Of a stretch of 64,000 bases of DNA, positions 17,071 to 37,610 are shown one piece after another. Position 1 is the first letter of the stretch. Every line of letters begins with the position of its first letter. The DNA is from Allobosea sp. (GTDB taxonomy: Bacteria; Pseudomonadota; Alphaproteobacteria; Rhizobiales; Beijerinckiaceae): the NCBI RefSeq assembly GCF_030695125.1, contig NZ_JAUYTP010000028.1:1-64000 (forward strand). The letters are read 5' to 3'. The position numbers and the translations under genes were made by a program. Under the pieces are notes generated by a model. That model had not been told where the DNA came from and did not search any database. It saw only the letters and a program-made list of their open reading frames with translations.

Positions 17071-17167
17071 GGCGGATCTCCGGGGGGGACGCCGGACGCG
17101 TGGTCCGGAGGTTCGGCCGAAGATGCGCGGATGGGGCTGGAGCCAACAGGCCCCGAGACCGGGGCCT
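17071..17167 (-). promoter_or_regulatory. Gap between early/middle and lysis/late blocks, with hairpin
   Basis: The 96-base gap between the Mor-like gene and the endolysin is the expected site of a Mor-activated promoter. At 17148-17167 a perfect 8-bp stem AGGCCCCG/CGGGGCCT with a 4-base loop overlaps the Mor stop and could terminate early transcripts, although there is no T-tract. No clear -10/-35 was recognized. Confidence 0.4.
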
Positions 17168-22078: not shown

Positions 22079-22079
22079 G

Positions 22080-22307
22080 TCAGGCAGCCTCCGCATCGAG
22101 CGCGGTGGCGAGCTGGCACAGGAGCGCGCGCCCGCCCTCATCCAGATACTGCCGGAAGAACGTCATCTCGTGATCGGAAAGGAGGTAGCCGTTCGCCTCC
22201 TGGACGGACGCGACCTCGTTGATCAGGTCAGCGAAGTCGCTGCCGGCTCCGGCCAATTCGACGGCAATGACGGCCGTCTCGATGTCCACCATGAGGGTGC
22301 TTGCCAT
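22080..22307 (-). CDS. Hypothetical early phage protein
   Basis: A 75-residue acidic helical protein (MASTLMVDIETAVIAVELAGAG...), with HEMTFFRQYLDEGGRALLCQLATALDAEAA at the end. No family recognized. It lies one base from the GcrA-like gene and shortly after DUF3164. Confidence 0.55.
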   Translation of the reverse strand: MASTLMVDIETAVIAVELAGAGSDFADLINEVASVQEANGYLLSDHEMTFFRQYLDEGGRALLCQLATALDAEAA

Positions 22308-22315
22308 GTCACACC

Positions 22316-22969: not shown

Positions 22970-23459
22970 GATGGCTCTCCTGGAGTGCGGGTTCTGAAGG
23001 GTCGGGTTCGGTGGGGGCGGTGAGCGAAACGACGAGCTGGGCCATGGCGATGACCTCGCTGACACTGACGCGCACGGCCTCGCGCTGGGGCGACCAGAGG
23101 ATCCGGCGCGCGGTGGCGAGCGGATCGACCGGCTGCGCCAGCCTGATCGCGGCGTTGTTTTCGGCGGCGTGGAGCGTCGCCAGCAGGGCGTCGGTGGCGG
23201 CGCGATAATCGGGGTCGCAGGCGCGCTGCGCCTCGGCCTGGCGGATGCCGTGGCCGACGGTGGAGTGGTTGCGGTTCGTGGCCTCGCCGATCGCCGGCAT
23301 GCTGAGCAGGGTCAGCTTCGAGGCCAGCCACCAGACGGTGAAGCGCGCCTCGACGACGTCGGGCTGGCGGCGCTCCGAGAGGATCTCGCGCTTGGTCACC
23401 GTCGTCGCCAGTTCGACGGCGGCGAGGATCGCGGCGAGCGACGTCAGGCGCTCGCTCAT
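22959..23459 (-). CDS. DnaA domain IV-like DNA-binding protein
   Basis: A 166-residue protein starting MSERLTSLAAILAAVELATTVTKREIL at 23459. Residues about 28-80 resemble DnaA domain IV: VVEARFTVWWLASKLTLLSMPAIGEATNRNHSTVGHGIRQAEAQR, with the NHSTV(GH) turn that reads the DnaA box. The AAA domain is missing, so it cannot be an initiator by itself. The C-terminal part is helical and Ala-rich. It could recruit, block or mimic host DnaA at phage or host sites. Confidence 0.75.
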   Translation of the reverse strand: MSERLTSLAAILAAVELATTVTKREILSERRQPDVVEARFTVWWLASKLTLLSMPAIGEATNRNHSTVGHGIRQAEAQRACDPDYRAATDALLATLHAAENNAAIRLAQPVDPLATARRILWSPQREAVRVSVSEVIAMAQLVVSLTAPTEPDPSEPALQESHHAA

Positions 23460-23743
23460 GACGCCGCTCCCGTCGCGGCGTGCGGCCGCAGCGCGAGGTC
23501 GCGCAGGGCATGCTCCAGGTTGAGCAGGAAGCGGCCGTCCCGGCCGGCGTCGCGCGGCAAGGCGCTCTGGCGCTTCACCTGGCCGGCCAGGTGGCGGAGA
23601 TCCATGTCGAGGCCGAAGCCGGTCGGACTCTCGATCCGGCTGAGGATGGCGTCGGCGCGCTCGTCGAGCGTCGGGCCGTCGAGCGCGCGGCGCAGGCCGG
23701 AGCTGGCCGCGATCTGGCGCTGCTGGTCGAGGAGCCGGCTCAT
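23456..23743 (-). CDS. Hypothetical early phage protein
   Basis: A 95-residue protein (MSRLLDQQRQIAASSGLRRALDG...) with FLLNLEHALRDLALRP near the C-terminus. Helical; overlaps the DnaA-like gene (ATGA) and the next gene upstream. No family recognized. Confidence 0.55.
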   Translation of the reverse strand: MSRLLDQQRQIAASSGLRRALDGPTLDERADAILSRIESPTGFGLDMDLRHLAGQVKRQSALPRDAGRDGRFLLNLEHALRDLALRPHAATGAAS

Positions 23744-24198
23744 GCCGCGTCTCCGCCTTCGCCCTGACAGTGGTCGCCCTGGCAGTCCTGCCGCGAGATC
23801 GCGGGACGCGGCACCACCGGGAAGGTGACGACGTTACTTTCGCCGATCGGCGCCGAGAGCTGGGCGAGGCCACGGTCGTGGCCCTCGTCCTCGCGGTCGA
23901 GCTGCGCCTGCAGGGCGCGCTGATGGCGCTTCAACGCCTTTTGAAGCGCGGGCGGGGCCTTGGCGCTCGCGACCAGGTCGAGATCGCGCGCCACCGCCTC
24001 GAGGTCGTCGGCGACCGTGGCGCGGACCTCCAACGCGTCGGCCTTCTCGGCCATGACGTTGAGCGCGACATAGAGCTCGCGGCAGGCGTCGATCGAGGGG
24101 CGCATGTGCGAGCCGACATATTTGCGCATCAGGTCGCGCAGCTCGCGCAGATCAGCCGACAGGGCCTTCGGGGCCAGGGTCTGGTTCGGGGTTTCCAT
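23740..24198 (-). CDS. Hypothetical coiled-coil protein
   Basis: A 152-residue protein starting METPNQTLAPKALSADLRELRDLM at 24198; longer upstream translations are out of character. A probable coiled coil spans about residues 50-110 (ADALEVRATVADDLEAVARDLDL...). Two Cys and a His occur in the C-terminal CQGDHCQGEGGDAA. No family recognized. Confidence 0.6.
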   Translation of the reverse strand: METPNQTLAPKALSADLRELRDLMRKYVGSHMRPSIDACRELYVALNVMAEKADALEVRATVADDLEAVARDLDLVASAKAPPALQKALKRHQRALQAQLDREDEGHDRGLAQLSAPIGESNVVTFPVVPRPAISRQDCQGDHCQGEGGDAA

Positions 24199-24202
24199 GA
24201 GA

Positions 24203-24418
24203 TCAGCGCTCCCCCTGCAGGTGGCGCCGATGCGCCGCCAGCTCGTCGCGCTCGATCGAGGCGAAGCCGAACAGCCCGACCAGCCCGAGCAGAACGCCGC
24301 CGAGCAGGAAGAAGACGTAGATCTCGGCATGGACGACATAGGCGCGCATCGCCCCGGCGCCGAAGGGCCCGAGCATCGCCATGGTCGCGAAAATCAGTTT
24401 GAAGCCGGAGGAGATCAT
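24203..24418 (-). CDS. Small membrane protein, unknown
   Basis: A 71-residue protein with two hydrophobic segments (about residues 6-24 and 33-52, VFFLLGGVLLGLVGLFGF) and a basic C-terminus. It sits among cytoplasmic early genes, so it may act at the membrane in exclusion or host take-over. No family recognized. Confidence 0.55.
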   Translation of the reverse strand: MISSGFKLIFATMAMLGPFGAGAMRAYVVHAEIYVFFLLGGVLLGLVGLFGFASIERDELAAHRRHLQGER

Positions 24419-24816
24419 CAGGCGGAGTCCTTCTGCTGGCGGTTGGGGCAGGTCTTGCAGGCGTGGGAGAGCCGGGCGCGGGTCGAGTTCGTGGCGGCGA
24501 AGGGCGTCGCCTGCTCGCGGAAGCAGCGGTCCCGGCCGATGTCGCCGAGGATCGGGCAGAGCACCGTCTCGCCCATCAGGGCGCCGCGGATGGTGGCCAG
24601 CACCTTGGCGACGTCGCCGGGGTATTTGTTGCCGAGCACATGGCTGATGACGGCGTCGGAGTAGCCGAGGCGTTTGGCGACGGCGCGCGAGGTCTGCGCC
24701 TTGCAGGCCTGCGCCAGGACGATGATCTCGGCCGGGGCGTTCTCCCCCCAGGCGCGCATGGCCTTGGCCAGCGCGTCGAGCTTGCCGGCCGAGCCGGGGA
24801 CGGGTCCGCGGTTCAT
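24418..24816 (-). CDS. Helix-turn-helix protein with C-terminal Cys cluster
   Basis: A 132-residue protein starting MNRGPVPGSAGKLDALAKAM at 24816 (ATGA overlap with the gene upstream). The middle carries an HTH (QTSRAVAKRLGYSDAVISHVLGNKYPGD). The C-terminus has CPILGDIGRDRCFREQATPFAATNS...CKTCPN, a possible zinc site. Comparable genes sit in the early region of Mu-like phages next to the transposition genes. It is a probable regulator. Confidence 0.7.
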   Translation of the reverse strand: MNRGPVPGSAGKLDALAKAMRAWGENAPAEIIVLAQACKAQTSRAVAKRLGYSDAVISHVLGNKYPGDVAKVLATIRGALMGETVLCPILGDIGRDRCFREQATPFAATNSTRARLSHACKTCPNRQQKDSA

Positions 24817-25418
24817 GCCGCCCATCCCTTGGTCTGCGCGCCGTTAAGGTTAACGACCTCGTCGTTGTTGCGATCGACCACGGCCTGCTGGCGATGCCTC
24901 ACGATGGGGGCATAGGGGCCGGTGTTCATGCGGCGCAGCAGCTGGTAGTGCCCGACCGTCCCGGCGCGCCCGATCAGGGCGACATAGCCGGCGCGGCGCA
25001 GCCACCAGAGATAGTTCTGAGCCACCGCGTCGCTGATCGGGGCCTCCTCGGTCGAGGCGGCGCAGGCGAGTTCGCGGATGGTGAAGCTCTGGAGCGCGCG
25101 CATGGCCCGCCAGAGCTGCTGGCGGCGGATGGCCTGCTCATTGTGCAGACGGCTCAGCTTCGGCGCCGCGGCGCCCTGACGGAGAAGGCGATAGGTCTTC
25201 TCGCAACGGCCGCCCCAGTACCGCGTCGCGGCGAGATCGACATGGCCGTCGGCGAGCAGGGCCAGGACATAGTTGGTCACGGCCGGGCGGGTGACGCCGC
25301 CGGTCCAGCCGAAGACCTGGCTGACCGTGAACAGGCCGTCATGCTCGGCGGCGACCTTGCGGATCATCGCCCAGTAGTGCCTGCCGCCGCTGAGGGGCCC
25401 CGATTGTCCCTGTTTCAT
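24813..25418 (-). CDS. Hypothetical phage protein with winged-helix character
   Basis: A 201-residue protein (MKQGQSGPLSGGRHYWAMIRKVAAEHDG...). It shows FTVSQVFGWTGGVTRPAVTNYVLALLADGHV and, later, FTIRELACAASTEEAPISDAVAQNYLWWLRRAGYV, two regions that look like successive winged helices, so it probably binds DNA. It shares a base with the MuB-like stop and follows it in the same operon. Confidence 0.6.
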   Translation of the reverse strand: MKQGQSGPLSGGRHYWAMIRKVAAEHDGLFTVSQVFGWTGGVTRPAVTNYVLALLADGHVDLAATRYWGGRCEKTYRLLRQGAAAPKLSRLHNEQAIRRQQLWRAMRALQSFTIRELACAASTEEAPISDAVAQNYLWWLRRAGYVALIGRAGTVGHYQLLRRMNTGPYAPIVRHRQQAVVDRNNDEVVNLNGAQTKGWAA

Positions 25419-26194
25419 CAGGCGCTCCTGCGGGCGGAGCGCGCCGGCGGCGTGCCGGTGAAGAATTCGGGGACGAGGCCGCCGGCCTCCAGCGCCTGGA
25501 GCCCGCGCGTGGCGGCGAACTCCCGGGCCTTGTAGAGGTTGGTGACGATGCGCCGCGCGCGGCCGTCCGAGGCCCGGCGCATGGCGTCCAGCGTGGCGTC
25601 GTCGATCGAAAGCGCGGGGCAGAACATCGCCGCGAGCTTGCGGGTGTCCTCCAGGTCGCAGGGCTGGGCGGCGACCCAGTCGAGCACGCGGTTGTGGACG
25701 CGCTCGATCTTCATCAGTTTCTGCGGCAGCAGCTCCTCGCCGATCAGCACGATCGGCAGCTGCGCGCCCTCCTGGATCTCGCGAACCAGCTCGATCATGC
25801 CCTTGTCGACGAGCTTGTCGGCCTCGTCGATGAAGAGCGGCGGGTGGTTGGGCTCGGCCAGGCGGATGATCGCCTGCTCGGTCAGGTCGGCGACCGTGCC
25901 CTTGGGCTCGCGGACGCCGAGTTCCTTCAGGATGGCGCGGACCAGCGTCTTCTTGGTCCAGCTGTCGCCGATCTCGATGCGCGGGCCGCCGGTCTTGTTC
26001 TGGGCGAAGACGGCCGAATAGGTCTTGCCATAGCCGGAGAAGCCATGGACCACGCCGAAGCCCGGCATGTGCGAGCCGCGGTCGTTGAGCCGCTGCACCA
26101 GCCCGACCATGGCGACGACGTTCTTCAGCAGGGCCAGCGAGGCCGGACGCTGGAAGCCGTCTGTCTTGATTTCAGGTGTCGTGACGTTCATCAT
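25418..26194 (-). CDS. MuB/TniB-like AAA ATPase transposition protein
   Basis: A 258-residue AAA+ ATPase that would deliver target DNA to the transposase and regulate target choice. Walker A GFSGYGKT at about 51-58, Walker B PLFIDEAD at about 119-126, sensor region LIGEELLP, and an arginine-rich lid (RRASDGRARRIVTNLY). It lacks the N-terminal HTH extension of Mu MuB (312 aa) and is closer to IstB/TniB-size proteins. Start at 26194 or 26191 (tandem ATGs) after a GAGG box. It follows the transposase after a 56-base gap. Confidence 0.88.
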   Translation of the reverse strand: MMNVTTPEIKTDGFQRPASLALLKNVVAMVGLVQRLNDRGSHMPGFGVVHGFSGYGKTYSAVFAQNKTGGPRIEIGDSWTKKTLVRAILKELGVREPKGTVADLTEQAIIRLAEPNHPPLFIDEADKLVDKGMIELVREIQEGAQLPIVLIGEELLPQKLMKIERVHNRVLDWVAAQPCDLEDTRKLAAMFCPALSIDDATLDAMRRASDGRARRIVTNLYKAREFAATRGLQALEAGGLVPEFFTGTPPARSARRSA

Positions 26195-26216
26195 GTCCCT
26201 CGCAATCACTTCGATG

Positions 26217-26243
26217 GCCCCGCTTCGGCGGGGCTCTTTTTTT
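26217..26243 (+). terminator. Intrinsic terminator between transposase and MuB-like genes, oriented against them
   Basis: On the plus strand a perfect 7-bp stem GCCCCGC/GCGGGGC with a TTCG loop is followed by TCTTTTTTT. Both flanking genes are on the minus strand, where the hairpin has only an upstream A-tract. It would stop plus-strand (antisense) transcription coming from the left, not the operon itself. Confidence 0.7.
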
Positions 26244-26250
26244 GGTCGGC

Positions 26251-28455
26251 CTAACGCAACGCCGCCTCGCCAAATTCCTCGTAGAGCCCGTCCAGCCCGC
26301 GCTTCTCGCTGCTGCCGGCGAAGCCGCCATAGAAGGCCGCCTGCTCGGGCGTGACCGGCTCTCCGGCCTCCAGCCGCGCATGCAGCTCGAGCCAGCGGCG
26401 GTAGCGCTGCTGGGGCGTCTCGCGATCGCGCAGGGGGCGGACATTGGATGGGCGTGGCGCCTGATGCGGCGGCGCGGGCGCGGCCTGCTCGGCCTCGAGC
26501 TGCGCCATCAGGGCCGCATCGCTGGCCGACAGCGGCGCCGCCATCGGCGCCTCGCCCCGGCGCATCGCCGCAATCTCCAGGCCGGCATCGAGCGCCGGCG
26601 TCGAGTGGATCTCGGAGCGCGCCGGGAAGGCGACGAGGTTGCCTGAGGCCTGCGCGGCCTGGGCGAGCCGGTGGTCGAGCACGGTGCGGTCGGTGACGCG
26701 CTTGGCTCGCACCATCGCCTTGGCCTGTGCCACCTGCTCCTCGACCATGCGGGCCTGCAGGGCCGCGCGCTCGGCCTGCAGCGCGGCCGGGTCGATGCCG
26801 GCGAGCTGGGCGTTGACCGCCTTGCCGAGCGGGCGGTCGCAGGCCTCGTCGGCAAAGAGCCAGATCGTGCCCTTGTCGGCGGGGTCGAGCGTGACGAAGA
26901 CGCGCTCGCCGGGAAGGATTCCCATCGGCTGGTAGTGGAACTCGCCGATGCGGACGCCCTGCTTGGACACGGTGCGGTAGCCGTCGCCGGAAGGCGCCTG
27001 CATCAGCAGGACGGCGAGCGCTTCCGCGTCGACGGTGCGGATCATGCGGGTCGAGGAGGCGGCGCGGGCGAACGGCGTCATCCTGCCGATGCCGCCATGC
27101 TCGTGATGGGCGTAGATGCCGTCCGCCCACTGGTCGCAGATGGCCTGGAGATCCTCGCCGGTCATGGTGACGTTGAAGGCGTCGTTGTCCTGGCCGAGGC
27201 GCTGGGAGAAGGCCTTGCGGCCCTCGATCTTCTTGCGCTGGGCGACGTCGTGCCCGACGAAGCCGGTCAGCATGCGCGCGCAATCGGTCTGGAAGGTGCG
27301 GATGTTGCGCTCGACCACACCCTTCTCCCAGGGCGAGAAGGCGTTGGAGCGGATCGCCTCGATGCCGAGACGGTCGAACAGGCGGACCGTGGCCCGCGCC
27401 ACGAAGTCCGAGCCGTTGTCGGTCTTCACCGCGTCGGGCACGCCCCAGGCGAGGATCGCCTTGCGCATCAGCATCTGCACGGCGATCGAGCGCGGGGTCT
27501 TCGACACGAACAGGCTGATGCGGCGCGACCAGATGTCGATGCAGACATAGATCGAATGGCGGCCGTCGATGCAGAGCGCATCGACCGGCGAGGCGTCGAT
27601 CTGCCAGAGCGCGTTGAGATGCGGCGCCATATGCGCGTAGGAGCCCGAGACCCGCATCTTCGAGCGGAAGCCGTCGGGATCCATCATCCTGAGCAGGCCG
27701 GCGGCGCATTCCTGGCGCCAGGCCTTCATCCGGATCTCGAAGGCGCGCAGGCCCGGCAGCGGCAGCCCGGCCGCCGCCAGCCGCGCGCCGAACTCGCCCT
27801 TGACCGCGGCGAAGATGTGCCGGGCCGTGTAGAGGTCGTTCATCGAATGGACGGCGAGCGCGAAATGCTTGATCTCGCCGTCGAAGGCGGCATCCAGCAC
27901 GCCCTGGCCGCGCCGGCCGGCGCCCTTGTCGACCGCCAGCCGCGCCGTCCCGCCCTCGCGGGAGGCCGACAGCCAGCGCAGGACGGTGCGGGTCGAGAGG
28001 CGGCCGACGATGGCCGCAGCCCAGGCGGGTGTCTCGATGCGGCCGAGATTGTAGAGATCGACGAAGGTGGCGACCGCGACCGTCTGTTTCAGCCCCGACA
28101 TCCGGATGAAGCCCCTGAGCGCGCCCAGCACGGCGAGCCGCGCGTCGAGCTGCAGCGTCGCGGCCCGGCCCGTGCCGGCGGCGGGCTCGGGCGCCGCCTG
28201 GATCGCCTCGGCCGCGGCCTGGTTCGCGTCGGCCGCGCCTTCGGCCTGCGCGCCGAGATAGGCCACGCGGGCGGCGATCGGCAGCAGGCTGACATGATAC
28301 TCGACCCCGCCACCGCGACCGGCCCGGGGCCGGCAGAGCGCGGCAAAGCGCGCCCAGTCCTCGCGCTCGGCGAGCAGGTTGATGTTGCGCTTGGTCGCCG
28401 GCAGGCCGGGCAGCGCGAGGTCGGCGAGTTCGGCGGAGGTGAGCCACATTTTCAT
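26251..28455 (-). CDS. MuA/TniA-like DDE transposase
   Basis: A 734-residue transposase starting MKMWLTSAELADLALPGLPATKRNINLLAE, the Mu-type N-terminal DNA-binding helix set. The catalytic RNase H core has Asp287 (QIDASPVD), Asp346 (KTDNGSDF) and Glu382 (EKGVVERN), with exactly 35 residues between the last two (D,D-35-E). A Mu C-terminal beta-barrel-like region follows (GERVFVTLDPADKGTIWLFAD), then a long Ala/Gln-rich helical tail, which in MuA contacts MuB and ClpX. It carries out replicative transposition and integration. Longer upstream extensions in this frame are not protein-like. Confidence 0.93.
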   Translation of the reverse strand: MKMWLTSAELADLALPGLPATKRNINLLAEREDWARFAALCRPRAGRGGGVEYHVSLLPIAARVAYLGAQAEGAADANQAAAEAIQAAPEPAAGTGRAATLQLDARLAVLGALRGFIRMSGLKQTVAVATFVDLYNLGRIETPAWAAAIVGRLSTRTVLRWLSASREGGTARLAVDKGAGRRGQGVLDAAFDGEIKHFALAVHSMNDLYTARHIFAAVKGEFGARLAAAGLPLPGLRAFEIRMKAWRQECAAGLLRMMDPDGFRSKMRVSGSYAHMAPHLNALWQIDASPVDALCIDGRHSIYVCIDIWSRRISLFVSKTPRSIAVQMLMRKAILAWGVPDAVKTDNGSDFVARATVRLFDRLGIEAIRSNAFSPWEKGVVERNIRTFQTDCARMLTGFVGHDVAQRKKIEGRKAFSQRLGQDNDAFNVTMTGEDLQAICDQWADGIYAHHEHGGIGRMTPFARAASSTRMIRTVDAEALAVLLMQAPSGDGYRTVSKQGVRIGEFHYQPMGILPGERVFVTLDPADKGTIWLFADEACDRPLGKAVNAQLAGIDPAALQAERAALQARMVEEQVAQAKAMVRAKRVTDRTVLDHRLAQAAQASGNLVAFPARSEIHSTPALDAGLEIAAMRRGEAPMAAPLSASDAALMAQLEAEQAAPAPPHQAPRPSNVRPLRDRETPQQRYRRWLELHARLEAGEPVTPEQAAFYGGFAGSSEKRGLDGLYEEFGEAALR

Positions 28456-28569
28456 GGGCGGACCTCGATGGGGCGACGCGCGGCGGGGCCGGCTGGGGGG
28501 CTGTTTGCCCCGCCGCGCGCTCCTCCTCCATGATGGGAGATGCGAACCACCCCACCGGAGGAAGCGGGA

Positions 28570-28815
28570 ATGACGGACGAGCAGGAATTTCGCCTGAACG
28601 GGGAAATCGCGGCGATAAAGGCGACCCTGGCGATCACCTTGGCCGTGTTGAGCGAGGAGCCGCGCGGCCGCGAAATGGTCGCGACCATCAAGGAGAACGC
28701 CCTCGACTGGGCCCACAAAGTGCGCGGGCAAATGAGGCCGCATCCGCTCAGCGACATAGGCGACAAGGCTACGATCGAAGCGTTGCACTTCATGCTGTCC
28801 GGCCTCGAACCTTGA
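28570..28815 (+). CDS. Small plus-strand gene inside the minus-strand early region
   Basis: An 81-residue protein (MTDEQEFRLNGEIAAIKATLAI...) with a clear GGAGGA box 7-8 bases before ATG. Balanced composition, with helices (TLAITLAVLSEEPRGREMVATIKENAL) and a C-terminal KATIEALHFMLSGL. It faces the transposase start and its last 26 bases overlap the end of the convergent gene at 28790. Probably an accessory (moron-type) gene with its own promoter in 28456-28569. No family recognized. Confidence 0.65.
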   Translation: MTDEQEFRLNGEIAAIKATLAITLAVLSEEPRGREMVATIKENALDWAHKVRGQMRPHPLSDIGDKATIEALHFMLSGLEP

Positions 28816-29134
28816 GGACGGATGAGTTCAGCGCGGCTTGCTGAACTTGGCGCGTTTGGGCGAGAAGCGTTGCAGCGTCAGAAGAGCCGGCTACGAGGCC
28901 ATCGCGCGCCTCCGTCAGGCGGTCGCGGAAGGCATAGCCAAGCCAGATCAGGGCGGTTGAAAGGTCCCGCTCCGGCAGCGCCTGAATGATCGCAGCCGCA
29001 AGCAGTTGGTCGACCTGGTCGAAGTCGAAATTCTCGATCTCCACCCAGTCCTGAAACGGAGGAATATCGCCATTTACTGTCGCTAGGACGACATCCAGGC
29101 GGGCTCTCAGGGTTTTGGTCGGGATCGCACTCAT
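28790..29134 (-). CDS. Hypothetical early phage protein
   Basis: A 114-residue acidic protein (MSAIPTKTLRARLDVVLATVNGDIPPFQDW...). It has DFDQVDQLLAAAIIQALPERDLSTALIWLGYAFRDRL in the centre. Its start overlaps the ParB-like stop (ATGA), and its end overlaps the convergent plus-strand gene by 26 bases. No family recognized. Confidence 0.6.
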   Translation of the reverse strand: MSAIPTKTLRARLDVVLATVNGDIPPFQDWVEIENFDFDQVDQLLAAAIIQALPERDLSTALIWLGYAFRDRLTEARDGLVAGSSDAATLLAQTRQVQQAALNSSVLKVRGRTA

Positions 29135-30012
29135 GCCGCACCGCCCTTCTTGGCGCGGGCGGGCTTCTGCGCGGCATCGGCGGCCGCGACCTTGGCCTGG
29201 ACCATGACCAGCGCGTCGCGCAGCTGGCCGGGCGACATCCGCGCCAGCAGGGCCTCCAGCTTGACGAGCGGCCCATCCTCGGCCCGCACGGCGCCGCCGG
29301 CGGGCACGAAGCCCGCGCTGACGCGGGCCTTGGCGACGTTGGAGGCCCGGCCCTCGGCGATCTCGCGGGCGACCGTGACCTGATCGGCCGGATCGAGCGC
29401 CGCGAGAGCCTGCAGCTGCGCCTGGTTGTCGGCGAGCTTCGTGCCCCGGATCAGGGCGACGGCGTCGGGGGAAAGAGCGGCAGCGAGGGAGCAAGCGAGC
29501 TGAACCGAACGCTCGCTCAGGCCGGTGGCTCTGGCTGCGTCCTTCGAGAAGCGAGCAAAAGTCGCAATGTTTGCGACTTTTCCTTTTTCGGTCTTCGGCT
29601 TCTTCGCCTTGCCGTGTCCGGCATCGGGATTGAGGGTTTCGTAGACGCGCTTGCGCTCGGCGAGGAAGAAGGCGCGATCGAGCGGGCTCAGCTCCTCGCG
29701 GGCCAGGTTCTCGTCGATCTCGATCATGCGCGCTTCGTCGTCGGAGCACTCGACGAGGACGGCGGCGATGTGCTCGCGTTCGAGCAGCGCCGTGGCGGCG
29801 CAGCGGCGGCCGCCTGCGACCAGTTTCAGCCCGTTGCCGGACGGGTGGACGCGCACCACGATCGGCTGGATCTGGCCGATCTCGCTGATCGAGGCGGCCG
29901 TCAGCTGCGCGTTCTCGGGGGTGACGGGGCGCAGGCGGTCGCTGACATCGATCGTGGCCAGCTCGGCCATGAACAGCGGCGACCCGGCCGTGAGGGCGGC
30001 GAGGAGGTTCAT
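29131..30012 (-). CDS. ParB-like protein in the immediate early operon
   Basis: A 293-residue ParB-domain protein starting MNLLAALTAGSPLF. It has the KorB/ParB boxes: LTAASISEIGQIQPIVVRVHP, LVAGGRRCAATALLERE, and IEIDENLAREELSPLDRAFFLAERKRVYE, then an HTH (FSKDAARATGLSERSVQLACSL). It sits between Ner-like and transposase genes. Without a ParA partner, a role in regulation or in phage DNA handling is more likely than segregation. Confidence 0.8.
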   Translation of the reverse strand: MNLLAALTAGSPLFMAELATIDVSDRLRPVTPENAQLTAASISEIGQIQPIVVRVHPSGNGLKLVAGGRRCAATALLEREHIAAVLVECSDDEARMIEIDENLAREELSPLDRAFFLAERKRVYETLNPDAGHGKAKKPKTEKGKVANIATFARFSKDAARATGLSERSVQLACSLAAALSPDAVALIRGTKLADNQAQLQALAALDPADQVTVAREIAEGRASNVAKARVSAGFVPAGGAVRAEDGPLVKLEALLARMSPGQLRDALVMVQAKVAAADAAQKPARAKKGGAA

Positions 30013-30263
30013 CAGGCGGCCCTCGACTTGATGCGCGCGCGACCGCGGCGGACGAGACGCTCCCCAGAAGCCGACCACCTGTCGGGCCAAAGGACATGCA
30101 GCGGGATGTTGAGCGCCTTGGAGAAGGCCCTCTCGGCGCCGAGCTGAGGCCGCTTGAAGGCGGCGCGAAGGGCGACGTCGGTCACGCCATAGGCCTCCGC
30201 GATCGACGGCAAAAAGCGGAACCGTGACTTCCGAACGGCGGCTAGGATGTCTGCTTCGTGCAT
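30012..30263 (-). CDS. Ner/Nlp-like DNA-binding regulator
   Basis: An 83-residue helix-turn-helix protein: MHEADILAAVRKSRFRFLPSIAEAYGVTDVALRAAFKRPQLGAERAFSKALNIPLHVLWPDRW is the full Ner/Nlp signature, including the WP.RW end. Mu Ner dampens early transcription and repressor synthesis during lytic growth. It is the first gene of the early operon, divergent from the repressor, as in Mu. Confidence 0.88.
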   Translation of the reverse strand: MHEADILAAVRKSRFRFLPSIAEAYGVTDVALRAAFKRPQLGAERAFSKALNIPLHVLWPDRWSASGERLVRRGRARIKSRAA

Positions 30264-30357
30264 GCTGGCTATCCGATTGGCGGCTGGAGCCGCGGTCTGT
30301 TAACCTTTGGAGTAACGAACGCTACCGTAACTATCTTTTTGGACGTATGCAAGCGCC
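30264..30357. promoter_or_regulatory. Divergent control region between ner-like and repressor genes
   Basis: A 94-bp AT-richer gap contains repeated GTAAC-like half-sites (GTTAAC at 30299, AGTAACG near 30311, CGTAACT near 30326) on alternating strands. This is the expected location of early and repressor promoters and of operators for both regulators. Exact promoters were not assigned. Confidence 0.6.
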
Positions 30358-31065
30358 ATGTCGATGCAATCGGAAAATGATGACGCCGAAGAGCTTGATT
30401 CCGGGCTCCTGGAGCGCTTTTCAGACGTTCTCGACGGGCTGGGATCGTTGAACGCGGCCTCCGAATTGACCGGGAACTCCGCTCAGCAGATTTCCAAATG
30501 GAAAAAGGGCAAGGCCAAGCTGCCTTTTCGGCAAGCGGCGATTCTGGCCAAGGCTGCCGGTCGCTCGGTCGACTGGTTGGCGTTCGGCGGCGCGCCCGAT
30601 GCCGGCGATGGCGCTTTGGCCCATCGGCATGCAGACGATGATCACGACCACGATGTCGTCTGGGTGCCGCTGCTCGACGTCATCGCCTCGGCCGGCCCCG
30701 GCTATGAGAACGCCCGGCCGTTCGAGCTCTCGAAGCTGCCGTTCCCCCGGGCCTGGCTGCAGCGGATGGGGCTGCCCGAGCAGCACGCCCGGTTCCTCGG
30801 AAGCCGCGGCGACAGCATGGAGCCGACGATCATGGACGGCGCGATCGTCCTCGTGGACATCCGGTCGCGGCATGCCCGCACCGATGGCATTTATGTGCTG
30901 ATCGACGGGCCGAATGTCAGGATCAAGCGAATTGCGGTCGGCTGGCAGAACGCGGTCGTGCTGATCAGCGACAATGAGAGATATGCTTCCGAGACGCTGG
31001 CGCCGCCCGATGCCGAGGCGTTGCGCGTGGCGGGCAAGGTGGTTTGGGCCGGTGGTGAAATTTAG
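30358..31065 (+). CDS. S24/LexA-type prophage repressor
   Basis: A 235-residue lysogeny repressor. Residues about 15-75 form an HTH (LNAASELTGNSAQQISKWKKGKAKL) and residues about 100-230 a LexA/UmuD-type peptidase with Ser153 (GDSMEPTIMDG) and Lys190 (NVRIKRIA), and a possible Ala112-Gly113 cleavage site. RecA-stimulated self-cleavage would make the prophage SOS-inducible, unlike Mu itself. The linker at about 89-99 is unusually rich in His and Asp. It is divergent from ner. Confidence 0.88.
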   Translation: MSMQSENDDAEELDSGLLERFSDVLDGLGSLNAASELTGNSAQQISKWKKGKAKLPFRQAAILAKAAGRSVDWLAFGGAPDAGDGALAHRHADDDHDHDVVWVPLLDVIASAGPGYENARPFELSKLPFPRAWLQRMGLPEQHARFLGSRGDSMEPTIMDGAIVLVDIRSRHARTDGIYVLIDGPNVRIKRIAVGWQNAVVLISDNERYASETLAPPDAEALRVAGKVVWAGGEI

Positions 31066-31075
31066 GGAGGATGCC

Positions 31076-31789
31076 ATGCGGAAAGCTGGCGGAATTATTG
31101 CTTTGATTGCTGGCGTTTTTGCAGTCATTGCCGCCATATTCACTTTATTGATCGGCGGTACCGCGTCTGCTTTCGAGGCCAAGGGTGCCGATACAGTGGT
31201 TATGCTTGGATGGGGCGGGGTTGCTTTCTCGTTTTTGACGATTGTTCTGGGCGCCGTCTGCATCACGGCGACGTCGCGGTGGCCTGCATTTCTTTTAATC
31301 GTCTGTTCTTTGGCGGGCGCTGTCCTGGGGGGAACCTTGGTAGCCATCTTCATGGCACTGGCGCTGGCTGGCGGTGTTCTCGGGGTCTTCGGAAAAGGAG
31401 CGGCACCAGCTGCCGCCGTTGTCGCGCTCGCAGTGGCTTTGGGCGCGGGCAGCGCCGAGCGCGCCGTCGCCCAGTCGAGGACAGTCGATGTGATCGATTT
31501 CCTCGTCGACCGCGACGACATGGTCGGGCAATCCGTCACGATAACGGGTTGCCGCTTCGGGGCCGCCACAGACAGCCAGGTCCTGTGCTCGGCGGGCGCT
31601 CAGGGAAGCGTCTCGATCGAGTCCAAAACACTCAACCGGGAAGATTTGCGTAGGGCGCTTCGCCAATGCAGTGATTTCACCGCCTTTGCGTCGGTTGCAT
31701 GCGGAGGCAGTGTCACCGGCACGGTCACGAAAGGCCCTTTTGGTTTTCGTTTGACGAAGGCCGCCATCGGGTGGCGGCCTTCGCCTTGA
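31076..31789 (+). CDS. Multi-pass membrane protein with C-terminal exported domain, accessory
   Basis: A 237-residue protein starting at 31076 after GGGAGG. The first 145 residues are mostly hydrophobic: segments near 5-28 (IIALIAGVFAVIAAIFTLLIGG), 40-62, 68-85, 87-105 and an Ala-rich 109-130. The last 100 residues look like an exported OB-like domain (VDVIDFLVDRDDMVGQSVTITGCRF...). GC is lower than in neighbours at its 5' end. Located downstream of the repressor and likely expressed in the lysogen, it could be an exclusion factor. No family recognized. Confidence 0.6.
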   Translation: MRKAGGIIALIAGVFAVIAAIFTLLIGGTASAFEAKGADTVVMLGWGGVAFSFLTIVLGAVCITATSRWPAFLLIVCSLAGAVLGGTLVAIFMALALAGGVLGVFGKGAAPAAAVVALAVALGAGSAERAVAQSRTVDVIDFLVDRDDMVGQSVTITGCRFGAATDSQVLCSAGAQGSVSIESKTLNREDLRRALRQCSDFTAFASVACGGSVTGTVTKGPFGFRLTKAAIGWRPSP

Positions 31790-31793
31790 GCTT

Positions 31794-32138
31794 TCAAGCC
31801 GCCTTGAAATCAGCCGCGCCGAGATCCCAGGAATCGGCCTCGCTATCGTCGGCGGCGGCCATCGCGTCGACCTCGGCCGAGACCAGGCCGTGGCGGGCGA
31901 GGATGACGCCGTCCTCCCAGTCGCCCGTCTTCGGGTCGCCGGTGCGCCGGAAGGCGACGACGCCGGCGCGGATCGGCCTGTAGCGCTCGAACAGGCGCAT
32001 CGCATGGTCGTGGTCGCGGGCCTCCATCGCGGGCTCGGCGCTGATCTTGGTCCTGGAGCCCTTCACGGCGGCGAAGGTCTGGACGACGAAATAGGTCAGG
32101 TTCTCGACGGTCTCTCTTTGCGGGCGGGCCTTACTCAT
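31794..32138 (-). CDS. Hypothetical accessory protein
   Basis: A 114-residue protein starting MSKARPQRETVENLTYFVVQTF at 32138. It contains KGSRTKISAEPAMEARDHDHAMRLFERYRPIRAGVVAFRRTGDPKTGDWEDG, a pattern I have no family for. It converges on the membrane-protein gene with a 4-base gap; a hairpin (GAAGGCCGCC/GGCGGCCTTC, 31756-31782) in the end of that gene may serve as terminator. Confidence 0.6.
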   Translation of the reverse strand: MSKARPQRETVENLTYFVVQTFAAVKGSRTKISAEPAMEARDHDHAMRLFERYRPIRAGVVAFRRTGDPKTGDWEDGVILARHGLVSAEVDAMAAADDSEADSWDLGAADFKAA

Positions 32139-32142
32139 GACG

Positions 32143-32249
32143 ACGCTCTCCTGTTTGCGCCCCGATCTCAACGCCGGGGCTGGAAACAGATTGACGCCGA
32201 CCGGAGAACGAAACAAGAACGCGACTGACGCGGCGAGTCAGGAGAGCGT
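32143..32249. repeat. 11-bp inverted repeat holding the ribosome binding sites of two divergent genes
   Basis: ACGCTCTCCTG at 32143-32153 and its exact complement CAGGAGAGCGT at 32239-32249 face outward, each just ahead of the start of a divergent gene (32138 minus, 32255 plus). Each copy supplies the GGAG box of its gene. Confidence 0.7.
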
Positions 32250-32254
32250 GGCTG

Positions 32255-32599
32255 ATGGGCAGGCGAAAAGGCGAGAGGACGGACCGGCATCGCGACCGGT
32301 CGCATCCCTTCCAGGTCGAGATGGTGACGCCGCTCGGGAGCGCGATGTCCATCCTGTACCGCTGGGCCTCGGCGCACAGCCACGAGACGACCGGCGGCAT
32401 GCAGACCATGCGCTGGTGCTTCTGCCGGCCGGAGATCGCCGATGCCTTCGCCACGGACTTCGGCGGAAAGCGCATCGACCTGCCTGTCGACCTCGACTAT
32501 CTCCATATCGACCGGCCCGACGCCCGCGAGCTGGAGCGGCGCGCGCTGGCGATGCGCACGGGGATCGCGATGATGACCGGCGGGAAGGAGGCTTGGTGA
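32255..32599 (+). CDS. Hypothetical accessory protein near the prophage end
   Basis: A 114-residue protein (MGRRKGERTDRHRDRSHPFQVEMVTPLGSAM...). It has MRWCFCRPEIADAFATDFGGKRIDL in the middle and a helical ARELERRALAMRTGIAMMTGG end. GGAG box upstream; its stop overlaps the next start (GTGA). No family recognized. Confidence 0.6.
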   Translation: MGRRKGERTDRHRDRSHPFQVEMVTPLGSAMSILYRWASAHSHETTGGMQTMRWCFCRPEIADAFATDFGGKRIDLPVDLDYLHIDRPDARELERRALAMRTGIAMMTGGKEAW

Positions 32600-32718
32600 A
32601 CGACGACGATCCGTTCGACCCGCCGCCGAGCCGTCATGGCCTGCTTGTCGCCGCCATCCTGATGCTGGCGGTCGCGATCTTCTGCTGGTCGTTCATCGCG
32701 GGCTGGAGGCCCTGGTGA
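32596..32718 (+). CDS. 40-residue single-pass membrane peptide
   Basis: VNDDDPFDPPPSRHGLLVAA... starts at a GTG preceded by a consensus AAGGAGG and overlaps the upstream stop as GTGA. One transmembrane helix (about residues 15-33) with a short Trp-rich end. Translation signals are strong; function unknown. Confidence 0.55.
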   Translation: MNDDDPFDPPPSRHGLLVAAILMLAVAIFCWSFIAGWRPW

Positions 32719-33082
32719 GCCCATTTTCGCATCCCACTTCCCAAATCGGCCAACCACCGGCCTGAGGCGCGATTCGGTCGATTTTTCACCGACTTAGGCA
32801 AAGTGGGATGCTCGGCCGGCGCACTGGCGAAAATCGTCCCACTTCGAGAGGCCGGCCAGACGATATTTCAACGACTTAGCGGCGGCCCCGATTTCCGGCT
32901 TTCGGGTTTCCCGGCTTTCGGGCCCCATTTTCAACGAACAATCAAATGGCAATGAAAACTGCCACCAGCCTTGTCGACGCCCGGACAGCCCTTTGAGATC
33001 GCACGATTTTCCGGCTGATCCCGCCTAATCCCGGATAATCCCGCCTACGCCCTGCCATTGCCATGTGATTGTTCGTTTCACA
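32719..33082. repeat. Prophage end region (attL-type) with multiple repeats; no gene
   Basis: These 364 bases hold no gene. A 22-bp element with core GAACAATCA lies at 32933-32954 and, with one mismatch and inverted, at 33056-33077, next to the terminal TG/CA. A related TTTCA-(A/C)CGA-CTTAG element occurs at 32784-32797 and 32866-32879. A CCCACTT element occurs at 32733-32739, 32801-32807 (inverted) and 32838-32844. CCGGCTTTCGGG is doubled near 32895-32922 and ATCCCGCCTA near 33019-33047. This fits transposase-binding sites at a Mu-type end. Confidence 0.7.
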
Positions 33083-33253
33083 GATACGTTTCTCGCGACG
33101 CCCGGCTGCGACAAGAGGTTCGCCACCTGCCAGGCCAAATTCGGCAATGGAATCAACTTCCGCGGCTTCCCGCACATCCCCGGTAACGATTTCATCATCG
33201 GCGGTGTCAAACCTGGCGATGGCGGTCTCGACGGCGGGAGCCTGTTTCGATGA
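33083..33253 (+). pseudogene. 3' remnant of GTA gene g13-like DUF2163 protein, interrupted by the prophage
   Basis: The reading frame across 33083-33253 ends ...GCDKRFATCQAKFGNGINFRGFPHIPGNDF..., the C-terminal signature of the DUF2163 protein of alphaproteobacterial gene transfer agents. About 56 codons remain; the rest is replaced by the prophage end. Its TGA overlaps the g14-like ATG exactly as in an intact GTA cluster. The ATG at 33065 is phage DNA and unlikely to be a native start. Confidence 0.85.
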
Positions 33254-33693
33254 ACGCGCCTCTCAACCGCGCCGCCATCGTCGAGGCCGCCACGCTGTGG
33301 CTGGGTACGCCCTATCATCACCAGGCCTCGCTTCGCGGGGTCGGATGCGACTGCCTCGGCCTCGTCCGCGGCGTCTGGCGCGATCTCTGCGGGGACGAGC
33401 CCGAGATACCGCCGCCCTATTCGCCGAGTTGGGCGGAGAGCCTCGGCATGGAGACGCTAGCGGCAGCGGCGCTGCGCCATTTGGTGCCAGTCGCGCCGGG
33501 GCGGGAGCAGCCCGGCGACGTGCTGCTGTTCCGCTGGCGGGCGCATCTGCCGGCCAAGCACTGCGCCATTCTGAGTGCGCCGGACCGGATCATCCACGCC
33601 CATGACGGCGCGCAGGTCGCCGAGGTCGCCTTCTCGCTTTGGTGGCGGCGGCATCAGAGCCACGCCTTTTCCTTTCCCGGAGTGACCGACTGA
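33250..33693 (+). CDS. GTA g14-like NlpC/P60 cell-wall hydrolase
   Basis: A 147-residue NlpC/P60-family protein. The catalytic Cys is in GVGCDCLGLVRG (Cys35) and the His in AKHCAIL (His104). In GTA clusters this gene lies between the DUF2163 gene and the large g15 tail protein, as here, and helps the particle cross the peptidoglycan. Start overlaps g13's stop (ATGA), and its stop overlaps g15's start (TGATG). It seems intact but lost its upstream operon to the prophage. Confidence 0.88.
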   Translation: MNAPLNRAAIVEAATLWLGTPYHHQASLRGVGCDCLGLVRGVWRDLCGDEPEIPPPYSPSWAESLGMETLAAAALRHLVPVAPGREQPGDVLLFRWRAHLPAKHCAILSAPDRIIHAHDGAQVAEVAFSLWWRRHQSHAFSFPGVTD

Positions 33694-36600
33694 TGGCGAC
33701 GCTTCTTCTGCAGGTCGCGGGCAGCGCGCTCGGCACGGCGCTGGGCGGCCCGATCGGCGCGGTGATCGGCCAGGCGATCGGCGGCATCGCCGGGGCGCAG
33801 ATCGACCAATCCCTGCTCGGCGGCGGCGCCGGCACGAAGACGGTCGAAGGGCCGCGCCTGACCGAGATCGACGGGCTCGCCTCCAGCGAGGGCGCCGCGA
33901 TCCCGCGCGTTTATGGCCGCGCCCGGATCGGCGGACAATTGATCTGGGCGACGCGCTTCGAGGAGGAGATCAAGGTCACGGTGACGCGCTCCAAGAGCGG
34001 CGGCAAGGGCAGCCCGAAGCAGAAAACCGTCGAGACGACCTATAGCTACTTCGCCAATCTCGCGATCGGCCTCTGCGAGGGGCGGATCGCCTTCGTCCGG
34101 CGCATCTGGGTCGATGGCCGCGAGCTCGACGTCACCACCGTCACCCTGCGCGTCCACCAGGGAGACGAGACGCAGGATCTCGATCCGCTGATCGCAGCCA
34201 AGGAGGCGGGCGCGGCGCCGGCCTATCGCAGCCTCGCCTATGTCGTGTTCGAGCGCTTTCCCCTGGGCGACTATGGCAACCGCGTGCCGCAGTTCGCCTT
34301 CGAGGTCGTACGCGCCGTCGAAGGGCTCGGCGGCATGATCCGGGCTGTGACGCTGATCCCGGGCGCCAGCGAATTCGTCTATGAGACGCGCAGCATCAGC
34401 CACGAACCCGAGCCCGGTGTCACCGAGAGCCTGAGCCGACACCAGCTCTATGGCGGCGCCGATGTCGACACCGCACTCGGCCACCTCGTCGCGCTGTGCC
34501 CGGACCTGCGCCGCGTCGCGCTGGTCGTGGCCTGGTTCGGCGACGATCTGCGGGCGGGCTCCTGCACCCTGTCGCCGCGCGTCGAGCTCGCCCAAAAACC
34601 GACGACCGGGGCCGAATGGGCGGTGGCGGGGCTTTCCCGCGCAACGGCGCGCGTCGTCAGCGAGGTTGAAGGCCGCCCGGCCTTCGGCGGGACGCCGTCG
34701 GACGAGAGCGTGATCCGCCTGATCCGGCGCCTGCGCGACGATTATGGCCTGGAGGTCGTGCTCTATCCCTTCGTGATGATGGACATCCCCGCCGGCAACA
34801 CGCTGGCCGATCCGGTAACGGGGTCGATCGGCCAGCCGCGCTACCCCTGGCGCGGCCGCATCACCTGCGACCCGGCTCCCGGCAGCCCGGGCAGCGTCGA
34901 CGGCACGTCCACGGCTGAGACGCAGATCGCGGCGCTGCTGGGCACGGTGTCCGCTTCGGACATATCGCTGGCCGGCGAGCAGATCGCTTGCGCCAAGCCC
35001 GATGAGTGGAGCTATAGCCGTTTCGTCCTGCACCATGCCGCGCTCGCGCAGGCGGCCGGCGGGGTCGCCGGCTTCGTGCTCGGCTCGGAACTGCCCGGCC
35101 TGACGCGGGTGCGCGGTGCGGCGGGCTATCCGATGGTCGATGGGCTCGTCGATCTCGCCGCGGAGGTCGCGACGCTGCTGCCCTCGGCCACCCTGACCTA
35201 TGCCGCCGACTGGACCGAATACGGCGCCCATGTCCGCAATGGCGGGCAGGACGTGACCTTTCCGCTCGACGCGCTCTGGGCCTCGCCGGCGATCGGCGCA
35301 ATCGGCATCGATTTCTATCCGCCGCTCTCCGACTGGCGCGACACCACCGACCACGCCGACACCGCCCTCGCCAGTGGGCCTGCTGATCTCGGCTATCTCC
35401 GCGGTCGCCTGAATTCCGGCGAGGCGCACGGCTGGTATTATGCCGATGCGAACGGCAGGCTCGCGCAGACGCGCCTGCCGATTACCGATGGTGATTATGG
35501 CAAGCCCTGGATATTCCGCCCCAAGGATCTCGTCGGCTGGTGGAGCAATACCCATGTCGAGCGCCTCGGCGGCGTCGAGACCGGCGCGACCGCCTTCGTG
35601 CCTGGGGCCAAGCCGATCTGGCTGACCGAGATCGGCATCCCCGCCGTCGACAAGGGCGCCAACGCGCCAAACGTCTTTCCCGACGCGAAGTCCGCCGAGA
35701 GCGGATATCCCTATTTCTCCAGCGGGGCGCGCGACGATCTGGTCCAGACGCGCGGGCTTGAGGCGATCATCTCCGGCTTCGACCCCGCGCGCGAGGGTTT
35801 CGAGGCCGCGCGCAACCCGGTCCATCCGGGCACCGGCATCCGCATGGTCGATCCGGCCCATATTTTCGTCTGGAGCTTTGATGCCCGGCCGTTCCCGGCC
35901 TTTCCCGATCTCGGCGGCATCTGGGCCGACGGCGCTGCCTACGACACCGGCCACTGGATCAACGGCCGCATCGAGGGCGCCCCGGTCGATCGGCTGCTGC
36001 GCCGGGTCTTGGCCGATTTCGGCCTGCCGGCGGCCGATTTGATCGCGGTCGACGGCTTCCTCGACGGCTATGTTCTCGACCGGCCGCTCTCGGCCCGGCA
36101 GGCGCTCGAGCCGCTCGGGCAGGCCTTCGGGTTCGACGCGACGATGAGTGCGGGTCGCTTGGTCTTTCGGGGCCGCGCGGGCGATGTTGCGCGCCGCCTG
36201 AGCGCGGACGATCTCGTGGCCGACCGCGACGGCAACCCGTTTGCGCTGCGCCGGGGGCAGGAAAGCGAGCTTCCGCTCGAGCTGCGGCTGGGCTTTGCCG
36301 ACGCCGAGAGCGACTATCGCACCGCCGCAGCCCGCTCGCGGCGGCTGGCCGGTGCGGCCCGCCGCGAGATTGGGGTCGAAACCGCCATCGTGACCCGCCC
36401 GGCGGAGGGCCAGCGCCTCGCCGATCAGCGTCTCCAGGAGGTCTGGGCGGGCCGCGAGACACTGGACCTCGAACTGTCGCCGCGCTGCCTCGATCTCGAA
36501 CCCGGCGATGTCGTCACCCTGCCGATCGACGGCGCGGAACGGCTCTTTCGGCTGACGCGCATCGATGACGGCCCGAGCCGCAAGGCGAGCGCGCGTGCCG

Positions 36601-37610
36601 TCGAGCCGGCGATCTACCGCAGCAGCGGTGTGCCGAGCCTGCCGCGGCCGCCGCGAACCGCCCCTGCCTTGCCGGGCCGCCCGCTGGTCGTCCCGCTGTC
36701 CCTGCCGATCGTGCGGACACAGCCGCCGCCGCTTCTGTCGCTGGCGGCGTTCGCGCAGCCCTGGCCTGGCGCGCTGGCGGTCTGGCAGGCCGATGGCGCC
36801 GGGCAGTTCGACCTGCTGCGCCTGATCGAGGCGCCCTCGATCGTCGGCGAGACGCTGACCGTCCTGCCACCCGGCCCGGTCTGGCGCAGCGATGTCCGTT
36901 CAGTGCTCGATGTCCGCCTGCGCGGCGGCAGCCTGTCCTCCGTCCCCGCCGAGGCGGCGCTGGCGGGCGCCAACGCCCTGGCGCTGATCGACGCCGACGG
37001 CACGGTGGAGATCGTGACAGCCGCGCAAGCCGAACTGATCGGCCCGCGGCACTTCCGGCTGTCGGGTCTGCTGCGCGGCCTCGGCGGCTCGGAAGCGGCG
37101 GCGGCGCGCAGCCTGCCGGCGGGCTCACGTGTGGTGGTGCTGGACGGGGCCGCCGTGACGCTCAGCGACGATCTCGCCGATCTCGGACAGCAGCGGCGCT
37201 ATCGCATCGGTCCCGTGCAGCGCGATCTCGGCGATCCGTCGATGGCCGAGATCGTCGCGACCGCCGGCGTCGCCGCGCTGCGGCCGCTGTCCCCGGTGCA
37301 TCCCAGAGCGCTCCGGACCGCCGACAGCGTTGCGCTCAGCTGGATCCGGCGCACCCGCATCGATGGCGATTCCTGGGAGCTCGCCGAGGTGCCGCTGGGC
37401 GAGGAGACGGAGCGCTATGAGGTCGCGATCCGGACGGGTGCGGCGCAATGGCGGAAAACCACCACCACGACGCCGGCCTGGACCTATCCAGCGGCGCTGG
37501 AACTGGCGGATTTCGGTGCGGCCCAGGCCGAAATCGAGATTGTGATCGCCCAGATCAGCGCCGTGGCCGGCCCCGGCGATGAATGGCTTGGACGCATCCC
37601 GGTCCGCTGA
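33693..37610 (+). CDS. GTA g15-like host-recognition/baseplate protein with TIM-barrel domain
   Basis: A 1305-residue protein, the same size as R. capsulatus GTA g15 (rcc01698). An Ala/Gly-rich start (MATLLLQVAGSALGTALGG) is followed by beta structure (IPRVYGRARIGGQLIWATRFEEE), a TIM-barrel-like domain (about residues 450-750; AADWTEYG, IGIDFYPPLSDWR, WLTEIGIPAVDKG) and a phage tail_3-type C-terminal half. It is host GTA, not prophage: the prophage end lies upstream. No frameshift or stop is seen. Confidence 0.88.
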   Translation: MATLLLQVAGSALGTALGGPIGAVIGQAIGGIAGAQIDQSLLGGGAGTKTVEGPRLTEIDGLASSEGAAIPRVYGRARIGGQLIWATRFEEEIKVTVTRSKSGGKGSPKQKTVETTYSYFANLAIGLCEGRIAFVRRIWVDGRELDVTTVTLRVHQGDETQDLDPLIAAKEAGAAPAYRSLAYVVFERFPLGDYGNRVPQFAFEVVRAVEGLGGMIRAVTLIPGASEFVYETRSISHEPEPGVTESLSRHQLYGGADVDTALGHLVALCPDLRRVALVVAWFGDDLRAGSCTLSPRVELAQKPTTGAEWAVAGLSRATARVVSEVEGRPAFGGTPSDESVIRLIRRLRDDYGLEVVLYPFVMMDIPAGNTLADPVTGSIGQPRYPWRGRITCDPAPGSPGSVDGTSTAETQIAALLGTVSASDISLAGEQIACAKPDEWSYSRFVLHHAALAQAAGGVAGFVLGSELPGLTRVRGAAGYPMVDGLVDLAAEVATLLPSATLTYAADWTEYGAHVRNGGQDVTFPLDALWASPAIGAIGIDFYPPLSDWRDTTDHADTALASGPADLGYLRGRLNSGEAHGWYYADANGRLAQTRLPITDGDYGKPWIFRPKDLVGWWSNTHVERLGGVETGATAFVPGAKPIWLTEIGIPAVDKGANAPNVFPDAKSAESGYPYFSSGARDDLVQTRGLEAIISGFDPAREGFEAARNPVHPGTGIRMVDPAHIFVWSFDARPFPAFPDLGGIWADGAAYDTGHWINGRIEGAPVDRLLRRVLADFGLPAADLIAVDGFLDGYVLDRPLSARQALEPLGQAFGFDATMSAGRLVFRGRAGDVARRLSADDLVADRDGNPFALRRGQESELPLELRLGFADAESDYRTAAARSRRLAGAARREIGVETAIVTRPAEGQRLADQRLQEVWAGRETLDLELSPRCLDLEPGDVVTLPIDGAERLFRLTRIDDGPSRKASARAVEPAIYRSSGVPSLPRPPRTAPALPGRPLVVPLSLPIVRTQPPPLLSLAAFAQPWPGALAVWQADGAGQFDLLRLIEAPSIVGETLTVLPPGPVWRSDVRSVLDVRLRGGSLSSVPAEAALAGANALALIDADGTVEIVTAAQAELIGPRHFRLSGLLRGLGGSEAAAARSLPAGSRVVVLDGAAVTLSDDLADLGQQRRYRIGPVQRDLGDPSMAEIVATAGVAALRPLSPVHPRALRTADSVALSWIRRTRIDGDSWELAEVPLGEETERYEVAIRTGAAQWRKTTTTTPAWTYPAALELADFGAAQAEIEIVIAQISAVAGPGDEWLGRIPVR

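Follow-up and report, generated by a model that had tools for sequence, protein, structure and literature searches.

A Mu-like prophage is inserted in g13 of the host gene transfer agent (GTA) cluster, at a recurrent site rather than by a random Mu event, a point missed by the initial annotation. Judged from sequence comparisons, the sites used by phages of this clade follow the AAA protein B and above all the product of the gene directly after it, here called Q, far more than the transposase A, and we propose on the strength of that correlation that Q is a target selector. The additions to the earlier reading are the recurring landing sites, two site classes within the GTA cluster, and a candidate selector apparently encoded in the window (the whole 64,000-nucleotide stretch of DNA that was analyzed).

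Within a 5.13-Mb assembly of 87 contigs, the window is contig C51, and the prophage extends over C32:1-649, C69 (7,564 bp), and window positions 1 to 33082, about 41.3 kb if these contigs abut, in an order based on a single gene running from C51 into C69. It codes for the DDE transposase (phrog_310) and AAA transposition protein (phrog_296) of Mu-like phages, has TG...CA ends with a 5-bp duplication (GATAC here, CAACG in the TND4EK4 relative), and carries a full set of head and contractile-tail genes by PHROGs assignment, made gene by gene outside the baseplate and fiber part on C69. A Mu-like prophage inside g13 ending at 33082|33083, as initially annotated, is borne out by both junctions. 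The phage end on the window reads ...TTGCCATGTGATTGTTCGTTTCACA, and the opposite boundary is at 649|650 of contig C32, where the g13 frame passes into phage DNA beginning TGTAGCGCGAACAATCAAATGGCAAC; the suggested 5-bp target duplication is present at both, the C32 copy standing as the complement (Table 1). Genome-wide, the end repeat CGAACAATCAMATGGCAA (at most one mismatch) has four copies, every one of them at an end of this prophage, and the repressor-side terminus recurs in L029-L032 with different flanking DNA. The transposase is single copy in the genome, save for one weak match on C79, and the C32 and C51 ends have no exact overlap of at least 20 bases. Named phage relatives come from Bosea (transposase identity 73%) and Camelimonas and from a MAG labeled Methylobacterium, which makes the host probably Bosea-type; the Bosea sp. 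TND4EK4 prophage may be defective, since there is an in-frame stop within its transposase stretch (L029:8001-10325).

Table 1. Coordinates of the features discussed (window positions unless a genome and contig are given)
Feature	Coordinates	Strand	Evidence or remark
Mu-like prophage, C51 share	1..33082		PHROGs: tape measure, sheath, head, protease, portal, terminase, transposase, repressor
Q, tandem winged-helix, proposed target selector	24813..25418	-	phrog_2030 E 8e-35; AlphaFold; identity follows target
B, MuB/TniB-like AAA ATPase, start not fixed	25418..26245	-	AAA_22, weak TniB; phrog_296 DNA transposition protein E 2.8e-52
A, DDE transposase	26251..28788	-	phrog_310 E 1.6e-101
Lysogeny repressor (HTH, S24 peptidase)	30358..31065	+	phrog_4; Peptidase_S24
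Phage terminus, repressor side	33058..33082		ends CA at 33081-33082; inverted repeat of other terminus
Target duplication GATAC	33083..33087		second copy at G000:C32:650-654
Host GTA g13, 3' part (last 56 codons + stop)	33083..33253	+	Phage_BR0599 E 6e-16; sole copy
GTA g14, NlpC/P60 peptidase	33250..33693	+	TIGR02219 / phage_NlpC_fam E 6.5e-57
GTA g15 (megatron homologue)	33693..37610	+	GTA_TIM E 3.9e-117, Phage-tail_3, Rcc01698_C
g13 5' part, codons 1-238	G000:C32:650-1365	minus	PF09931 E 1.4e-57
59-kb element in g5	G003:C43:15290-74729 (L053-L056)		large serine recombinase at one end
23-kb element in g5	G017:C13:8433-31281 (L057-L058)		large serine recombinase at one end

From position 33083 the window had been read as the last 56 residues of g13 followed by g14 and g15, and the family matches agree. 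The rest of the cluster lies past the other prophage end on C32, where the 5' part of g13 is preceded by terminase, portal, protease, capsid, and tail genes g2 to g12, and RcGTA-type head-tail genes g1 to g15 are present in order (g1 is named from its position before the large terminase, with no Pfam match and one weak PHROG; g11 likewise has no Pfam match). A second g13 was sought in the genome and is absent, leaving just the two pieces. Relatives without the prophage have an uninterrupted gene: the joined flanks align straight across the site in all 19 same-genus loci fetched through a g14 search, and an intact g13 query against 397 genomes of the order gave 251 matches; among the stronger ones, those listed, only this genome's g13 is shortened. 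In the genus, 59 of 67 genomes have a g15 match and 58 of 67 a capsid gene match, and where the fetched stretches extend to the cluster flanks these are a HerA/lysine-decarboxylase-like pair on one side and a response regulator/kinase pair on the other. GTA segments have dN/dS values of 0.00 to 0.28 in three pairwise comparisons, i.e., the cluster is vertically conserved under purifying selection, and no relaxation is seen on this host's branch when sister G019 is the reference (69N:276S versus 74N:278S, P = 0.78; g3 lacks a sister sequence). Relaxed selection after insertion was considered and rejected, as the dN/dS analysis gives no sign of it; with purifying selection and no relaxation, the insertion is probably recent and the cluster would have been kept until recently.

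The initial annotation also proposed that the phage has disabled the GTA. The genetic part of this stands, in that g13 is split, has no second copy, and lies in an otherwise open cluster; since RcGTA g13 is the baseplate hub (PMC7296036), loss of GTA particles in the lysogen is, by analogy, very likely. If the RcGTA numbering carries over, the break would fall near the end of the oligosaccharide-binding domain and sever the clip domain and the second half of the ion-binding domain (PMC7296036). The host cluster resembles RcGTA in the families and order of g2 to g15, its conserved locus, and purifying selection, and differs in being known from genes alone and in two trypsin-like protease genes that are antisense within the cluster, between g5 and g6 (L002:5072-6792, + strand). 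All 10 relatives compared, including one of another genus, have this antisense pair in the same position. A Caulobacter system controlling GTA release includes trypsin-like proteins (PMC13236601), and a link of the antisense genes to release control is only a guess by that analogy.

Scanning IMG/VR with both phage ends, alongside scans with the transposase and g13, made 19 insertions of this phage clade readable; 16 were reached from the phage side, and 6 of those 16 lie inside a GTA cluster or at its beginning. The g13 set comprises four events in four different hosts (this prophage, L094, L083, and L105, the last found through g13), all within 5 bp of one another and in both orientations (L083 is reversed), with duplications ending 5, 7, 10, and 10 nucleotides, respectively, past one shared glycine codon. 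Four further events are at the cluster start, inside or just before g1: L084 and L087 are 2 bp apart in opposite orientations within a stable hairpin ∼50 bp before g1, whereas the G003 insertion is at about codon 3 of g1 and that of L085/L092 at about codon 51. The G005 phage, nearly identical to that of L084, shares its insertion base and adds no event to the count. Neither a promoter nor a terminator turned up in scans of the region before g1, where the stable hairpin is the one supported feature. Hosts of the g13 class are 79 to 83% identical to this host at the locus, and the g1-class hosts L087 (88%) and L092 (91%) are closer, so host kinship does not explain site choice. In a genome scan, one (L032) of four loci with a readable end is at a GTA, and among 78 loci with more distant Mu-like phages those with GTA genes alongside are L187, L186, and L191, all already known, and L205, with one g15-like match. 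In the L087 host the large terminase match past the Mu-like insertion (L087:3249) breaks off at residue 470 of 506; the next 3.6 kb contain no other GTA gene, which makes a second break likely.

Other phages of the clade use other places. Upstream of serC, L078/L079 and L089/L093 coincide to ∼1 bp in opposite orientations, L030 of Camelimonas lactis is also inserted upstream of serC, and the serC leader RF00517 starts 43, 41, and 59 bp from the serC-class insertions. L091 and L088 are five and ten bases 3' of the stop codon of a cell-wall hydrolase gene, L086 and L090 are near one small hypothetical gene at different bases, and L029/L047, L031, and L082 are single-site events. L082 is beside another phage end, 5 bp from the apparent end of a like phage (L082:1600-1660), i.e., tandem copies. 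No common 5-bp target motif was evident by eye among the duplications or flank-end 5-mers (e.g., GATAC, CGCGC, GCCGC, CGTAG, and CAACG), and no hairpins were found at a fixed distance from the target sites. Phage-target homology as a guide was rejected, the longest shared word (14 nucleotides, at the g13 target) being equaled or beaten by 32 of 60 random host stretches.

A gene-by-gene comparison singled out Q, whose identity is 80 and 84% in L076 and L081, both g13 phages, and 28 to 38% in six phages located elsewhere, with transposase identities in the same phages of 55 to 79% throughout. The transposase tree separates the g13 phages (this one with L076 and L029, and L081 with L085), and the B tree groups them, with the long-branched L078 also falling among them. 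Label permutation (20,000 shuffles) used 13 phages in seven target classes, with g1 and pre-g1 insertions pooled (up to ∼200 bp apart) and with L094/L179, L105/L181, L088/L182, and L086/L189 paired by contig name; L183, whose link to the g1 copy is unproven, and L185, which has no host gene, were omitted. Comparison of same-target versus other pairs gave Q identities of 0.72 versus 0.33, reached in 0/20,000 shuffles and still in 0/20,000 after regression on A, whereas A sorts weakly (0.72 versus 0.64, 357/20,000). Phages with like A and unlike targets include L186/L189 (A 90%, Q N-part 18%), L180/L182 (80% and 19%), and L030/L031 (86% and 51%). Against this sorting, the serC-class Q pair has only 33% N-part identity, and one member is 40% identical to the Q of a phage inserted elsewhere. 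For L182 and L189, Q identity is 55% despite different sites. The insertion and its duplication, the recurrent sites, and the sorting of Q and B with target are direct observations.

Q matches no family of Pfam or NCBIfam, and its AlphaFold model (27 sequences; mean pLDDT 82.8, pTM 0.57) has two winged helices, the first with its recognition helix assigned to residues 44 to 56. Foldseek against PDB gave no match at E ≤0.001, and its best rows include ESCRT-II subunits, YceH, and MukE, which we take to be tandem winged-helix proteins. A rule for the predicted recognition helix was set from the first phages (GVTRPA.TNY for g13, YP.IAEW for g1/pre-g1, and HRKT.E.Y for serC), and both contigs examined after it was fixed (L181 and L191) fit: the L105 contig carries the g13 helix, and the L087 contig, with its junction on the same locus, carries the g1 helix. 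A G003 contig also has the g1 helix and was excluded from the test, its link to the g1-inserted copy being unproven. Every viral contig recovered with a Q of the g13 type (three: L179, L181, and L187) is in g13. A further scan with Q added no phage of this type, its only matches being two known contigs and a relative at 37%. The two GTA-directed Q types (g13 and g1) are 14 to 20% identical in the N-part.

Matches to Q are present in 122 phage records, 117 of them Pseudomonas phages, and in plasmids there is one 29% match. In the D3112-group phages Ab30 and 2P1, as here, a phrog_2030 homologue lies directly after B; the two are 96% identical in Q, as the selector model wants, and share hotspots with insertions in both orientations, those of Ab30 being 55 to 61 bp from a 35-bp motif (PMC5977238). 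Hairpins or the host are suggested there as the cause of the hotspots. HW12 insertion is reported as almost random, and the prediction that its Q would be unlike those of Ab30 and 2P1 failed (97 to 98% identical), which the selector model would not foresee unless the host strain matters. In the Mu clade, according to a Tn7 survey (PMC10293859), MuB shares an operon with a conserved gene.

Related phages with a matching, putatively DNA-binding protein lie within a few letters of one spot, and the g13 insertion thus looks aimed rather than accidental. We consider it probable that it was guided by a targeting module of B and Q, with the site chosen and not random. A temperate Mu-like phage would have transposed into g13, duplicating GATAC and parting codons 1 to 238 from the last 56; Q would bind a sequence in or near the site and place B there, and A would insert within ∼10 bp in either orientation. 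The same Q type would then lead to the same spot, a second type to the start of the GTA cluster, and others to serC, the 3' side of the hydrolase gene, and further sites. Being conserved yet dispensable, the GTA cluster may serve as a shared landing site, at the cost of the host's GTA. DNA binding by Q, recruitment of B by Q, GTA loss, and a benefit to the phage are what we infer. The broader version, to which we give about an even chance, is that B and Q form an exchangeable module in which the Q recognition helix sets the landing place, and that two dissimilar Q types separately settled on GTAs (the g13 hub; g1 and its leader), which are switched off on lysogenization.

Targeting could also exist but be governed by B without Q, by the two jointly, or by a host DNA-binding protein at these sites, with Q a transcription regulator traveling with B. 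We regard this as unlikely, while noting that B also sorts with target (0.81 versus 0.57, 0/20,000 shuffles) and that, as B travels with Q, either could be the cause; PHROG 2030 is annotated as "transcriptional regulator," and MuB is the known target-capture protein (PMC5977238). However, L182 and L189 share 87% of B and are at different sites, L030 and L078 share just 50% of B and are at the same site, and a host factor alone leaves different sites in close hosts unexplained.

Mu is the textbook case of near-random transposition, and such an event could have chanced on g13, with recurrence reflecting database bias and survival of lysogens whose insertions are harmless. This we find distinctly improbable. 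It would fit the wide target ranges of Mu-like phages (PMC5977238) and the lytic growth of Citromicrobium Mu-like phages, in which co-resident prophages are favored and GTA-like genes are reported to be neutral (PMC12486242), a result that also speaks against a general Mu-versus-GTA rivalry. The excess of GTA insertions as such (6/16) has P values of 7e-12 with no bias, 5e-6 with 10-fold, 0.015 with 50-fold, and 0.16 with 100-fold IMG/VR bias, and is less safe than their tight clustering because IMG/VR favors phages sitting in phage-like DNA. Bias and survival, however, do not place four g13 insertions within 5 bp of one another in a coding gene or make the site track Q; when 8 events were placed uniformly over 16 kb, four fell within 6 bp in 0/200,000 runs. 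An assembly chimera or mixed culture, which the spread of the prophage over three contigs without end overlaps might suggest, is extremely improbable given the matching duplication and inverted repeats at both junctions, the way the two g13 parts complement each other, and the like arrangement seen in L083, L094, and L105.

The phage with its proposed B/Q module shares a DDE transposase, an AAA protein, TG...CA ends, and a 5-bp duplication with the D3112 group (Casadabanvirus) and with the Rhodobacter/Rhodovulum phages RC1/RS1, which have the best transposase identity in the phage collection (35%). Unlike these, it has a contractile tail, recurrent GTA-cluster sites, and a site that goes with the Q type. 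A transposase and an AAA protein are similarly combined in Tn7-like elements with TniQ/TnsD target selectors, along with a DNA-binding protein and a specific landing site (both of them here predicted), but the present element is a phage, inserts in both orientations, and has a Q that, without a Pfam match, has no TniQ domain. Among papers listed from one open-access library, judged by title and start of abstract, none reports prophage or Mu-like insertion in GTA genes or target selectors in Mu-like phages. If true, a phage-encoded selector would bring Tn7-like logic to Mu-like phages, with a testable recognition-helix-to-target code, and it would show mobile elements routinely landing in a prophage that the host has domesticated, with a bearing on how GTAs are lost.

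Such loss is seen in other forms, with 8 of 67 genomes of the genus lacking a g15 match and two having serine-integrase elements inside the capsid gene. In the latter, two different elements (59 kb in G003 and 23 kb in G017) are at the same GG dinucleotide of g5, with serine recombinases that are 41% identical and at opposite element ends. Relatives of these integrases (L066, L067, and L069-L074) are not beside GTA genes, and of two viral scans one gave only the G003 copy or a near-identical one and the other nothing. The cargo of the G003 element is stress and defense: besides a large DUF4011/MTES_1575/DUF3320 helicase-nuclease, it has ClpB-like and FtsH-like genes and genes for UvrD/PD-(D/E)XK nucleases. 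G003 additionally has a Mu-like phage end in g1, and G017 additionally lacks g2 to g4 and the first ∼100 codons of g5. Elsewhere, G015 (L062) is without most of g12, g13, g14, and the start of g15, G028 (L044) has g6 and g14 each in two frames, and G455 (L064) has a stop in g15, with g12 and the terminase in two pieces.
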